A stretch of 64,000 nucleotides of DNA from Aequorivita sp. CIP111184. Lineage in GTDB: Bacteria; Bacteroidota; Bacteroidia; Flavobacteriales; Flavobacteriaceae. Made by a program: the position numbers and the translations under genes. Position 1 is the first letter of the stretch. Every line of letters begins with the position of its first letter. The notes below the pieces were generated by a model. The model searched no databases, was not told where the DNA came from, and saw only the letters and a list, made by a program, of their open reading frames with translations. Location: positions 248,001-312,000 of the forward strand of contig NZ_UEFQ01000013.1 of NCBI RefSeq assembly GCF_900489465.1. The letters are read 5' to 3'. Below, piece after piece: positions 6,497 through 53,430 of the stretch.

Positions 6497-6581
6497 ATGA
6501 AATGCTCAATAAAGATTTTAAAATAATTGAAGGTGCAAATTTGGGCATTCCATCCTTCTAACAATCTAACATATTATACAG
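6497..6581 (+). promoter_or_regulatory. Recurrent leader element, copy 1 (upstream of META lipoprotein)
   Basis: ATGAAATGC (6497-6505) and GGGCATTCCATCC (6543-6555) can pair through AATGCTC with GGGCATT. The GCATT block ends exactly 32 nt before the ATG at 6582. The same layout recurs at 13846 and 51259. It looks like a conserved structured leader; the Flavo-1 RNA motif of flavobacteria is a candidate identity that I could not test. Confidence 0.6.
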
Positions 6582-7022
6582 ATGAAAACACTTACCACAT
6601 TATCTATTCTTATTTTTACACTATTTTTTACAGGCTGCGATGAAACCAAAAAAGTAATTGATGTTGCTGGAAGCGTTCAGTTAACAGGCAGTTATACTGT
6701 TTCTGCTATAAATGGAAAAAAACTTATTAATACTACAAACCCAACTTTTACAATGTCCGCTTTAGATAACTCCTTTCGTGGAACAACGGGTTGCAATTCG
6801 GTTTTTGGTACTTATACCATTGATCTTTACAGCATCAGTTTTGGCGATTTAGCGGTTAGCGAAAAAATGTGTACAGATAAAAATATTATGAAAACAGAAA
6901 GAGACTTTTTGAATGCATTGAATAATACTGGAACTTACGGTTTACAAAATGGAGTACTTACATTTTATTCTAAAACAGACCGAAGTGTTATCCTCACTGC
7001 TGCCAAAGACACAAATAATTAA
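6582..7022 (+). CDS. META domain lipoprotein
   Basis: A 146-residue lipoprotein with lipobox FFTGC (Cys19) and one META/HslJ-like domain: the RGTTGCNSVFGTY segment and the MCTDKNIMKTERDFLNAL segment carry the two conserved cysteines and the typical C-T-x(5)-M-x-x-E-x-x-F pattern. META proteins are envelope proteins linked in other bacteria to heat shock or antibiotic tolerance; the role here is unknown. It lies between sufS and sufE, but a hairpin and its own leader precede it, so it may have its own expression control inside the suf locus. Confidence 0.82.
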   Translation: MKTLTTLSILIFTLFFTGCDETKKVIDVAGSVQLTGSYTVSAINGKKLINTTNPTFTMSALDNSFRGTTGCNSVFGTYTIDLYSISFGDLAVSEKMCTDKNIMKTERDFLNALNNTGTYGLQNGVLTFYSKTDRSVILTAAKDTNN

Positions 7023-13845: not shown

Positions 13846-13931
13846 ATGAAATGCGCTTTATCACTTATCAAAATACAGAAAATGAATTATAAGAGCATTC
13901 CATCTTTAACTTTATCAAATATTTTATAAAG
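13846..13931 (+). promoter_or_regulatory. Recurrent leader element, copy 2 (upstream of porP/sprF)
   Basis: ATGAAATGC (13846-13854) and GAGCATTCCATCTTT (13893-13907). AATGC pairs with GCATT; position 6 of the stem is mismatched, and three more pairs can form inside. GCATT ends exactly 32 nt before the ATG at 13932, as in the copies at 6497 and 51259. Confidence 0.6.
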
Positions 13932-14849
13932 ATGAAAAAACATATATATATTCTAATTGTATTGATGGCAGCGTTGCTCTTTCAGGAAGCACAGGCACAG
14001 CAAGATCCTCAATACACCCAATACATGTACAATATGAACGTGGTAAACCCAGCTTATGCAGGGTCCAAGGAAAGTCTTTCCCTTACCGCACTTTACAGAA
14101 ACCAGTGGGGCGGCTTGGAAGGCAGTCCGGTTACCTTCACTTTTGCGGCACATTCGCCAATAAGTGATAAAATTGGGCTCGGACTTTCCGCAATAAAAGA
14201 CGAATTGGGTCCAGTAAAGGAAACCAATGTGTTTGTAGATTTCTCATATACCCTTCAAGTGGGGAGCAATGTAAAACTTGCTTTGGGTCTTAAAGCTGGT
14301 GCGACTTTTCACGATGTGGGGCTTTCAACTTTGGAATTACAGGATCCCAACGATCCATTCTTTTCAGAAGACATAAATAACACCTATCCAAATATTGGTG
14401 CTGGTGCTTTTCTGTATGGTGAAAAGTTTTATTTGGGATTATCAGTTCCAAATATGTTGAAATCAGTTCACTTGGATGAAAACGGAATCAAGTATGGTTC
14501 TGAAACCAATCATTACTTCGCAACAGCTGGATATGTTTTCCAGGTTTCGGAAAACTTCAAATTGAAACCTTCCGTAATGGTTAAATCTGCTTTTGATGCG
14601 CCCGTTTCTTATGACGGAAACCTGAATGCACTATTCTATGATAAGTTTGAACTTGGAGCATCCTATAGATTGGACGATTCCTTTAGCGGTTTGGTTGGGT
14701 TTCAAATTACCCCCAACATCCGCGTTGGGTATGCCTATGACCACGTAACATCTGACATTAAAACAGTGGGTCCAGCCTCACACGAAGTGGTGCTGACTTT
14801 CGACCTATTCTTTAAGCCACGTGTTTTACGTTCACCAAGATTCTTCTAA
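13932..14849 (+). CDS. Type IX secretion system membrane protein PorP/SprF family
   Basis: A 305-residue outer-membrane protein with a signal peptide (cleaved near AQAQQDPQ) and the PorP/SprF signature QYTQYMYNMNVVNPAYAGS at residues 27-45, followed by ALYRNQW. Members form outer-membrane beta barrels that anchor or export type B T9SS cargo, best known for SprF with the SprB gliding adhesin. It lies between the adhesin gene and the OmpA-family gene, 24 nt before the latter, a standard flavobacterial arrangement. The specific partner is inferred to be the 11317 product. Confidence 0.93.
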   Translation: MKKHIYILIVLMAALLFQEAQAQQDPQYTQYMYNMNVVNPAYAGSKESLSLTALYRNQWGGLEGSPVTFTFAAHSPISDKIGLGLSAIKDELGPVKETNVFVDFSYTLQVGSNVKLALGLKAGATFHDVGLSTLELQDPNDPFFSEDINNTYPNIGAGAFLYGEKFYLGLSVPNMLKSVHLDENGIKYGSETNHYFATAGYVFQVSENFKLKPSVMVKSAFDAPVSYDGNLNALFYDKFELGASYRLDDSFSGLVGFQITPNIRVGYAYDHVTSDIKTVGPASHEVVLTFDLFFKPRVLRSPRFF

Positions 14850-50969: not shown

Positions 50970-51345
50970 AATTAATAATTTTTTAAATTTTCGGCGAATA
51001 TAGCACCATTTCAGATAGTAACACTAAAACCATACTTTTATTATAATTTGGTCTACTCTAATGCGGTTAAATTTGCGTTTTTAGTATAAAAATTATATTA
51101 ATTTATACAACTTTATATCTCCAATACACAATCAATCTTCATCGTAATTTTTAATTATTTTGAAGGTTTTTTCCCAAAACGTCATCATTATTTTGAATAC
51201 TGCATTTTTTCCCTCAAATTTGATGTCATTAAAAGATTTTATATAATATTATTCCCTAATGAAATGCCCATTAACTAATAACAACCTAATTAATGATAAA
51301 TAGATAGGGCATTACATCTTCCTATTTATCAAATATTAAATTAAG
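50970..51345. other. Intergenic region of 376 bp between two divergent genes
   Basis: It is AT-rich and contains no reading frame of note. It holds, near 50995-51002, a weak minus-strand -7 box for the lipoprotein gene, and at 51259-51345 the third copy of the recurrent leader element upstream of the DsbD-like gene. Nothing else was recognised. Confidence 0.65.
51259..51345 (+). promoter_or_regulatory. Recurrent leader element, copy 3 (upstream of dsbD-like gene)
   Basis: ATGAAATGC (51259-51267) and GGGCATTACATCTT (51307-51320). AATGCCC pairs perfectly with GGGCATT (7 bp). GCATT ends exactly 32 nt before the ATG at 51346, as in the copies at 6497 and 13846. The last six bases before and after ATG also agree among the copies. 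Confidence 0.6.
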
Positions 51346-53430
51346 ATGAAAAAAATATATCTTTTCCTCCTCCTCGCCACAGTTTCTCTTGCTTCCGTTC
51401 AATCTCAGATTCTTGATCCCGTAAAGTGGTCCACGAGCATAAAAAAAATATCGGAGACTGAATACGATTTAATTTCAAAAGCATCTATTGAAGATAAATG
51501 GCACTTGTATTCGCAGGTAGTTCCGGACAATGGACCATTACCAACAAATCTTACTTTTGAAGAAAACAGTGCATACAAATTAATTGGAAAAGCAAAAGAA
51601 AGCAAAGGCCATACCGTTCACGATCCTGTATTCGATATGGTAATTACCTTTTTTGAAAACAGTGCAACTTTTACCCAACGTATTAAATTAACTGGAGATA
51701 AAGGCACCACGGTAAAAGGTGAAGTAGAATTTATGGTTTGTGACGATACCCGATGTTTACCTCCAAGTTATATTGATCTGATTTTTAAAATTCCCACTCC
51801 CGAAAAAAGTAAAGAAGCGGCAGTAACTTCTGAAAACACAGATAATTCTGAAACCGTCGAACCTACTACTGAAAAGGTTGAAAACAATGCAACGGTTGAT
51901 ACTGTAAAAACTGAAGTTGTAAAAGACACCCTTCAAGCTTCCTCAGAAAAAACACTTTCAGCTGTTGAACAAAACCAAAAACAAGATGAAAAAGGACTTT
52001 GGACCATCTTTTTCTTTGCCTTTCTTTCAGGATTTGCGGCATTGCTTACACCTTGCGTATTCCCAATGATACCTATGACCGTAAGTTTTTTTACGAAGCA
52101 AAGTAAAACAAAAGCAAAGGGTATTAAAAACGCTATTATTTATGGTGCTTCAATAATCATTATTTATGTATTATTAGGTATTCTAGTAAGTTTAATATTT
52201 GGGCCGCAAGCACTAAATGCCCTGTCAACCAATGTTTGGTTTAATCTTATCTTCTTTGTTTTGTTAATTGTATTTGCAGTTTCCTTTTTAGGAGCTTTCG
52301 AAATTATGCTTCCTAATTCATGGGCTAACAAAGTGGACTCGCAAGCTGACAGAGGCGGTTTAATAGGTATCTTTTTTATGGCTCTTGCTTTGGCTATTGT
52401 ATCGTTTTCGTGTACTGGGCCTATTGTTGGAACGCTATTGGTTCAAGCAGCGGCTGGTGGAAGTCAAGTAGGACCTATTGTTGGGATGTTTGGATTTTCT
52501 TTAGCTATAGCATTACCTTTCGCATTATTTGCAGCCTTTCCAGGATGGATGAATTCGTTGCCAAAATCTGGAGGTTGGTTAAACACTGTAAAAGTAGTAT
52601 TGGGCTTTTTAGAACTAGCCTTGGCATTTAAATTTCTTTCAAATGCAGATCTTGTGCTGCAGATGCACTTGTTGGAACGTGAGGTTTTCCTCGCTATTTG
52701 GATTGCCATTTTTGGGGCTCTGGCGCTCTATCTCTTCGGAAAAATCAAGTTGCCACATGATTCGCCATTAACACATATTTCGGTTGGACGACTTAGCCTT
52801 GGGCTACTGGTACTAGCATTTACTGTTTATATGATTCCTGGACTTTGGGGTGCGCCCTTAAACCTAATTAGTGCTTTCCCGCCGCCTTTAGATTACGCAG
52901 AATCGCCTTATGGTGTTGGTAATTCCAAAGTTGGAGGAGGGATTGTTGCGAATGAACACCAAGAGGTACCCGAAGGTGCACATCTATTAGCACCCCATCA
53001 AATTTTAGCATTTAACGATTATGACAAGGGTCTTGCATATGCAAAAACAGTAGGTAAACCAGTAATGATTGATTTTACGGGTTGGGCCTGTGTTAATTGC
53101 CGAAAAATGGAGCAGAACGTTTGGGTAGATGACAAGGTATTGAATATATTGAAAAACGAAGTAGTACTTATATCACTATATGTTGACGACAAACGTAAAC
53201 TTGAAGATGACGAAATTGTTGAATCACAATTAAAACCTGGTAAAAAACTTAAATATATCGGTCAAAAATGGAGCGAGTTACAAACCATCAAGTATAAAAC
53301 CAATTCGCAACCCTTTTATGTTTTGATGGGCCACAATGAAGAAAATCTAATTGATCCAGTTGGTTATACACCAGATGTCGAGGAATATTATGGATGGCTT
53401 CAAAAAGGAGTTGGCGCTTTTAAAAAATAA
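51346..53430 (+). CDS. DsbD-like protein-disulfide reductase
   Basis: A 694-residue three-part thiol-disulfide reductase that carries electrons from cytoplasmic thioredoxin across the inner membrane. After a signal peptide comes a DsbD alpha-like domain (about 25-155) with a Cys pair in [10 protein letters not shown], an acidic Glu/Thr-rich linker (about 160-210), a CcdA-like eight-helix core with Cys in [11 protein letters not shown] and FSCTGPIVG, and a C-terminal thioredoxin domain with CVNC (about residues 584-587) as the active site. The Cys set is complete. It carries the recurrent leader and is followed by an aminotransferase gene 59 bp downstream. Confidence 0.92.

Follow-up and report, generated by a model that had tools for sequence, protein, structure and literature searches.

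The window analyzed here is a 64,000-nucleotide stretch of the Aequorivita sp. CIP111184 genome (contig NZ_UEFQ01000013.1, positions 248,001 to 312,000), in which a META-domain lipoprotein gene, porP/sprF and dsbD are each preceded by the same leader. A preliminary description had reported this arrangement upstream of three genes of different families, and the Pfam assignments of the three host proteins bear this out (Table 1). The order ATGAAATGC...GCATTNCATC is present on the forward strand in the copies beginning at 6497, 13846 and 51259, with inner distances of 39, 40 and 41 nt as originally given, and did not occur once in 100 dinucleotide shuffles of the window. The constant 32 nt to the start codon is correct when the count begins directly after GCATT, but counted from the end of the 12-mer GCATTCCATCTT the distance is 25 nt; this 12-mer lies at 13895 in the porP copy, and its counterparts are GCATTCCATCCTT at 6545 and GCATTACATCTT at 51309. 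AATGC and GCATT, proposed earlier as pairing arms, form part of a helix (P1) whose pairing covaries, and a second helix (P3) joins a short guide to the bases at the start codon, being weak in the META copy (CATC/GATG only).

Table 1. Element copies, their helix arms and the host genes in the window
Feature	Position	Strand	Basis
Element copy at META-domain lipoprotein gene, 85 bp	6497..6581	+	pattern, covariance model
P1 5' arm AATGCTC, META copy; partner 6543-6549	6501..6507	+	
P1 3' arm GGGCATT, META copy	6543..6549	+	
Host gene, META-domain lipoprotein	6582..7022	+	PF03724, E 1.8e-19
Element copy at porP/sprF, 86 bp, from old ATGAAA to base before present start codon	13846..13931	+	covariance model; exact stretch absent in 15/28 orthologues
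P1 5' arm AATGCGC, porP copy; partner 13893-13899, one mismatch	13850..13856	+	
P1 3' arm GAGCATT, porP copy	13893..13899	+	
P3 guide part CATCTT, porP copy; partner 13929-13934	13901..13906	+	family covariation
P3 partner AAGATG, including porP start codon	13929..13934	+	
Host gene porP/sprF	13932..14849	+	PF11751, E 4.2e-90
Element copy at dsbD, 87 bp	51259..51345	+	pattern, covariance model; absent in 23/28 orthologues
P1 5' arm AATGCCC, dsbD copy; partner 51307-51313	51263..51269	+	
P1 3' arm GGGCATT, dsbD copy	51307..51313	+	
P3 guide part CATCTT, dsbD copy; partner 51343-51348	51315..51320	+	
P3 partner AAGATG, including dsbD start codon	51343..51348	+	
Host gene dsbD	51346..53430	+	PF02683, PF11412

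Across the whole assembly (3.54 Mb in 44 contigs), the exact pattern matched seven times and its reversed control not at all, and a covariance model built from these seven copies returned 17 matches, the weakest with an E-value of 0.043. A long open reading frame follows all 17 copies, and in 16 of them the element ends exactly at its ATG. Besides the three hosts in the window, six further host proteins scanned against Pfam comprise an sdhB-like iron-sulfur protein, an aldo/keto reductase, a lysA-like decarboxylase, GldB, a glycerol-3-phosphate dehydrogenase and a pterin dehydratase. The same placement was found in a set of 29 further loci (L025-L053), where 26 units end at a frame of at least 40 aa or one open to the end of the stretch, the other three being weak matches that could not be parsed, one of them outside Aequorivita; the 32-nt spacing recurs in 19 of 24 measured copies of the genus. 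Each copy begins with ATGAAA, a hexamer that occurs 126 times in the window: 20 times at possible gene starts, 93 times in coding sequence and 13 times wholly between genes away from starts, three of these last forming the left ends of the elements themselves. Much of the preference for starts would be accounted for if harmless insertions are the ones that survive, although 16 of 17 is nonetheless high. The flanks upstream of the element vary between loci. A conserved leader peptide was considered and rejected, as the frame opened by the old ATG (MKC...) is of variable length and its stop differs among the seven copies.

To determine how these leaders arose, we compared the upstream regions of porP and dsbD in 28 Aequorivita genomes. 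At porP, nine genomes carry the element and 15 are empty, the start not being located by the script in the other four. In the 15 empty species the same or a close flank, ...ATAGATAAAA, is joined directly to ATGAAAAAACAYATATAT, whereas in filled species this flank leads into ATGAAAT... and the gene then continues as ATGAAAAAAC, with ATGAAA on both sides. At dsbD three genomes are filled, 23 are empty and two could not be called; in four empty loci (L208, L214, L215 and L236) the 12 letters preceding the join are identical to those of the flank in the CIP111184 genome, and more distant species have different flanks. Because orthologues exist in which the flank is joined directly to ATGAAA, the porP and dsbD leaders are precise inserts of 86-87 bp at the start codon, with ATGAAA doubled and the reading frame kept. 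Within the window, a stretch around TTTTGAATACTGCATTTTTTCCCTCAAATTTG (51160-51250), upstream of the dsbD insertion point, is similar in many empty species and looks like a native promoter region.

The distribution of filled and empty sites is scattered over the genus. On a combined PorP and DsbD tree, in which 8 of 25 inner branches are drawn open, at least eight changes of state are needed at porP and at least three at dsbD, and these numbers are the same without the undetermined rows; one genome (G011) is empty at both genes despite grouping with filled G019 and G000. Filled copies at one locus nevertheless have locus-specific letters in common: for seven of the nine porP copies the nearest relative among 44 elements is another porP copy, and the three dsbD copies are 89-98% alike. 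These shared letters suggest old insertions followed by repeated precise loss, with repeated gain or transfer a further possibility.

The preliminary description had called for a covariance model of the copies and a search of related genomes, and such a search finds further copies with conserved spacing. With the seven-copy model, all 28 Aequorivita genomes contain 1-25 copies at E<=0.01, and 31 other genomes yielded one weak match. A pattern scan of species genomes returned at least 117 matching stretches, and all 117 were read. Among these matches listed, the units with a full right part all come from Bacteroidetes, including Algoriphagus, Pleomorphovibrio, Lunatibacter, Galbibacter, Sinomicrobium, Halomarinibacterium and Chitinophagales, whereas in the matches from other phyla, and in some Bacteroidetes matches, no right part is recognizable by eye. 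A second covariance model, built from 44 sequences and applied to 150 candidates per genome at most, found at least 121, 115, 55, 77, 80 and 127 copies in six Cyclobacteriaceae genomes and 1-11 copies in each of nine others, and at E<=1e-4 it matched 35 of the 295 genomes (23 of 156 genera) in a sample of Bacteroidia. Many of the copies in Algoriphagus aquaeductus have one identical score, as expected after recent spread. Six viral contigs match the short pattern, none with the rest of the element by eye; neither a plasmid collection searched with the porP copy nor a phage collection searched with one Algoriphagus unit contained similar DNA. The element precedes an sdhB-like gene in Pleomorphovibrio (L339) as well as in several Aequorivita (L008), probably by coincidence, as both genes begin with ATGAAA.

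In Cyclobacteriaceae the units stand head to tail, with up to five in a row among those read (L057). Each begins with ATGAAAT and ends with ...ATAAACAG, ...ATAAACAC or a close variant, and the next unit or gene starts with ATGAAA as a rule, giving ATGAAAT at the junctions. A single array can mix P1 types, namely AATGCCC/GGGCATT, AATACCC/GGGTATT and a third type beginning ATGAAATCGAGC. Among the 37 of 40 Cyclobacteriaceae regions that could be parsed, 19 arrays end exactly at an open reading frame of at least 70 aa; a twentieth (L344) ends at a 68-aa frame that is probably the next unit read through, and the others lie within 60 nt of a longer frame or have no long frame close by. Of the 18 regions parsed in A. 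aquaeductus, 16 have ATGAAA after the array, and the letters that come next vary.

Several further features of the arrays were observed. Units of the ATGAAATCGAGC type (L338:2088-2230, L342:2088-2360, L257 and others) contain at least one extra hairpin, CCCGA...TCGGGACAGGCT and similar, which sits within the guide segment between ATTC and ATNTG; P3 can be paired in those read. The P1 of this type (L163, L073, L107) appears by eye to contain a tandem GA/GA internal loop, AATC-GA-GCATG / CATGC-GA-GATT. In Algoriphagus sp. MSM8 (L163:4011-4700) an IS110-family transposase gene (PF01548) follows the fourth unit of an array, inside that unit. REP sequences serve as targets of other elements, and this unit may have been the target of an IS110 element in the same way.

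Both helices are supported by comparative analysis. P1 pairs AATGCCC with GGGCATT, and P3 pairs the guide CATCTG with CAG-ATG at the start codon. In the 44 sequences from the phylum, most of them collected by a pattern in which part of P1 is already set, 97.0% of cells in P1 and P3 are paired and five pairs are changed on both sides, a level reached in none of 500 shuffles; the seven copies of the CIP111184 genome hardly vary and show no covariation on their own. In 76 distinct units, the base before ATG is complementary to its guide base in 68, compared with 42.6 expected under independence (C-G 52, G-C 9, A-T 7, other 8), related copies being counted apart here, so that the chi-square P is not a true probability. 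P1 is also maintained at a single locus: in the nine filled porP orthologues, 60 of 63 cells are paired against a shuffled mean of 55.2, a value reached by 59 of 20,000 shuffles in a statistic that ignores relatedness, and compensatory change is seen in AATCTTC/GAAGATT of one species and AATGTTC/GGGCATT of another. Because P1 is kept in place there, host selection is suggested to act at porP as well. Folding of single sequences is unremarkable, with z-scores of -2.59 to +0.13 for the seven copies, and the best predicted fold of the META copy lacks P3. An alternative pseudoknot between CATCTT and GAAGATG in the P1 loop can be drawn by eye in Aequorivita, but the match is not conserved in Cyclobacteriaceae loops, and P3 was preferred.

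The guide lies in the segment TTCCATCTG (TTCCATCTT in Aequorivita), which can pair with either junction of the insert: TTCCAT is complementary to the left ATGAAA with one A-C mismatch, and CATCTG to CAG-ATG on the right. These two pairings are mutually exclusive, because both use CAT.

Judging from the exact empty sites, the arrays and the paired segments together, we consider it likely that the leaders are copies of a short, non-autonomous, site-specific mobile repeat that inserts at ATGAAA, regenerates the start codon and leaves the old one in a hairpin. In the mechanism we propose, a repeat of 85-95 bp would insert at this hexamer, mostly where it forms the start codon of a gene, leaving ATGAAA on both sides and the old start codon at the left end with its surroundings folded into P1. 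The right end would bring an A/T-rich stretch directly before the regenerated ATGAAA, preserving gene start and frame. The first part of TTCCATCTG would pair with the left ATGAAA and extend P1, while the second would form P3, and since these competing pairings share CAT, the segment probably recognizes both junctions in insertion and in precise excision. As DNA it could align the two junctions for either reaction, and we infer mobility through this guide-like segment; in mRNA the same segment may partly close the new start codon, with the left pairing and P1 covering the surroundings of the old one. Such properties suggest a kind of element adapted to landing on gene starts while leaving the genes whole. 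A stronger version is rather doubtful, though worth stating: an element specialized for translation starts, whose guide pairs with ATGAAA, folds away the old start, supplies a new one and leaves without a scar, would act as a reversible leader switch, perhaps without a dedicated transposase.

One way for a mobile repeat to work would be transposition in single-stranded form by an HUH (Y1) enzyme of IS200/IS605 or TnpA-REP type, the element then being REP- or MITE-like; the probability of this account overlaps with that of the general reading, and we regard it as possible but not as the likelier course. A hairpin with a short guide that pairs at the junctions, a site-specific target, precise joins and head-to-tail copies would all fit, and subclass 2.6 of TnpA-REP in Bacteroidetes is reportedly flanked by atypical secondary structures (PMC6006769). 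The distribution of the enzyme fits less well. Y1 transposases (PF01797, Y1_Tnp) are absent from 8 of 41 element-bearing genomes (G003, G004, G006, G010, G017, G018, G025 and G287), one of which has 25 copies, and occur in 23 of the 37 genomes in which no element was detected; the survey did not include 19 of the 34 further positive genomes from the 295-genome search, nor two Aequorivita genomes that are incomplete. In addition, the foot of the element contains no GTAG, and units lie near 3 of the 40 Y1 loci examined (L247, L254, L257), which we judged to be near chance in genomes with about one unit per 40-90 kb. The CIP111184 genome itself has two weak Y1_Tnp matches with a YIHNNP motif (L245 on contig C5 and L252 on C13), both lying among short palindromic repeats of a different kind from the element.

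Other candidate movers fared no better, and no mobilizing enzyme was found. Of 20 element-bearing genomes, 11 lack RVT_1 and 9 lack DEDD_Tnp_IS110, and two genomes with 11 and 10 copies (G025 and G010) lack Y1, RVT_1 and IS110 alike. Y1/RAYT proteins, reverse transcriptases and IS110 transposases were thus each rejected as a required mover, being missing from several element-bearing genomes, some of them copy-rich. Old immobile copies could persist without the enzyme that made them, and these absences therefore rule out a need for each enzyme, but not its past action. A search of the collected loci for an interrupted or autonomous unit revealed no autonomous copy: the candidates were mostly intact units whose right part falls outside the pattern, and the remainder were extra-hairpin units, degraded units, look-alikes and one unit before an IS110-like gene.

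We next considered whether the leader is instead a cis-regulatory RNA (a riboswitch, an RNA thermometer or the target of a small RNA), selected at each gene and controlling translation through P3 at the start codon. The covariation of P1 and P3 reveals a conserved leader structure of the type expected of such an RNA, and the compensatory changes in the nine porP orthologues and the common 32-nt spacing in the genus point the same way. Accessibility was predicted for 103 copies. In a window from -12 to +15, the median unpaired fraction is 0.43 at the old start, 0.57 at the new start and 0.56 at a modelled empty site, these and the following values being thermodynamic predictions on partly related sequences. 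In 85 of 103 copies the old-start window is predicted to be more closed than the new one, and in 87 it is more closed than that of the modelled empty site. For the three AUG letters the predicted medians are 0.22 (old), 0.10 (new) and 0.43 (empty site), the old AUG being less open than the new one in just 37 of 103 copies. Predicted masking of the old start thus rests on the window and fails when just the three AUG letters are considered. For the new AUG, pairing is predicted to predominate, and in 83 of 103 copies this AUG is less open than that of the empty site; the element could therefore lower expression, with P3 possibly restraining the new start. An influence of the element on expression of the host gene is possible, but regulation as the reason for the element's presence at each gene is unlikely: the hosts are unrelated, orthologues in most species lack the element and show exact joins, single genomes hold more than 100 copies, units occur in tandem arrays and away from gene starts, and no Rfam family matches. 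Of the earlier suggestion of a regulatory RNA or a conserved promoter/operator, the structured nucleic acid stands, whereas a classical regulator shared by the three genes is the less favored reading, given the scarless empty orthologues, the tandem arrays and the Cyclobacteriaceae copies that are not directly followed by a gene.

Binding of a shared transcription or sigma factor to the leader as a DNA operator or promoter element would account for the same order upstream of several genes but is very unlikely, as both helices covary, the upstream flanks are not conserved between loci, and the element separates the native leader from the start codon; at dsbD, promoter-like sequence (promoter consensus TAnnTTTG) lies upstream of the insertion point in the filled copy of the CIP111184 genome and in empty species. 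Scarcely credible is a bypassing element, in which the ribosome would start at the old AUGAAA and hop over the insert to the second: the identical hexamers on both sides, the hairpin between them and the native leader kept before the old start would suit it, but the old-start window is predicted to be more closed, fresh initiation from the A/T-rich leader at the right end is simpler, and we know of no bypassing from an initiation codon.

If the leaders are copies of a mobile repeat, as we favor, their location is of interest in its own right, since short mobile repeats usually survive between genes, whereas this one apparently survives on genes, where insertion can renew the start codon. The element is widespread but patchy in Bacteroidetes and precedes metabolic and surface genes (sdhB-like, lysA-like, porP, gldB). 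Bacteroidetes make little use of Shine-Dalgarno sequences, and the element provides a natural test of what a newly acquired structured leader does to translation; it also poses a clear search problem, that of its mover. In a literature search that covered mostly papers readable without subscription, we recognized no description of repeats inserting at start codons in Bacteroidetes.

Comparison with known RNA families gave no close relative. Against Rfam release 15, no gathering-level match falls on the element, neither in the window (no match) nor at 20 further loci, where the single match is a SAM riboswitch (RF00162, 67.3 bits, L160:3445-3549) that lies a few kb from a unit array in A. aquaeductus. 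On the opposite strand, 6517-6591 matches FopS weakly (18.4 bits, where the gathering score is 56), which we attribute to chance; FopS works in trans, its targets being susC mRNAs (PMC11697453). Flavo-1 RNA, named earlier as a candidate, resembles the element in being common in Flavobacteria, with no clear function and located around many genes (PMC9723704), but its Rfam model does not match the element and is absent even from the permissive matches at the three copies.

Among mobile repeats, REP/BIME sequences with their TnpA-REP (RAYT) proteins share with the element a short structured form, tens to hundreds of copies, the absence of a gene of their own and arrays of neighboring units. REP repeats associated with Y1 proteins are described as short palindromic sequences that carry a GT[AG]G or CGTC tag (PMC6006769 and PMC3733652). 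The units described here differ in being 85-95 bp long, head to tail in the arrays read and placed at ATGAAA start codons, and their foot reads ATGAAAT...ATTCCAT in the alignment, with no GTAG or GTGG. Pattern searches found no unit beside loci with the YIHxNP motif among those examined. Like MITEs and short elements derived from IS200/IS605, the element is non-autonomous, dispersed and target-specific with precise empty sites, and with IS200/IS605 it shares a fixed short target, with scarless empty sites at porP and dsbD and ATGAAA on both sides. No IS200/IS605 parent with the same ends and a tnpA gene was present among the loci examined. In contrast to MITEs, the element has no terminal inverted repeats spanning it, its inverted repeats being P1 and P3 and not its two ends, and its doubled hexamer is fixed; it differs from both groups in targeting a start codon and leaving the gene intact.

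Mobile bypassing elements and Rickettsia palindromic elements are likewise short hairpin-forming inserts that genes tolerate, but they lie inside reading frames, whereas the element described here sits at the start codon and renews it. Placement at start codons, a renewed start and exact empty sites are what distinguish it from other short non-autonomous repeats.
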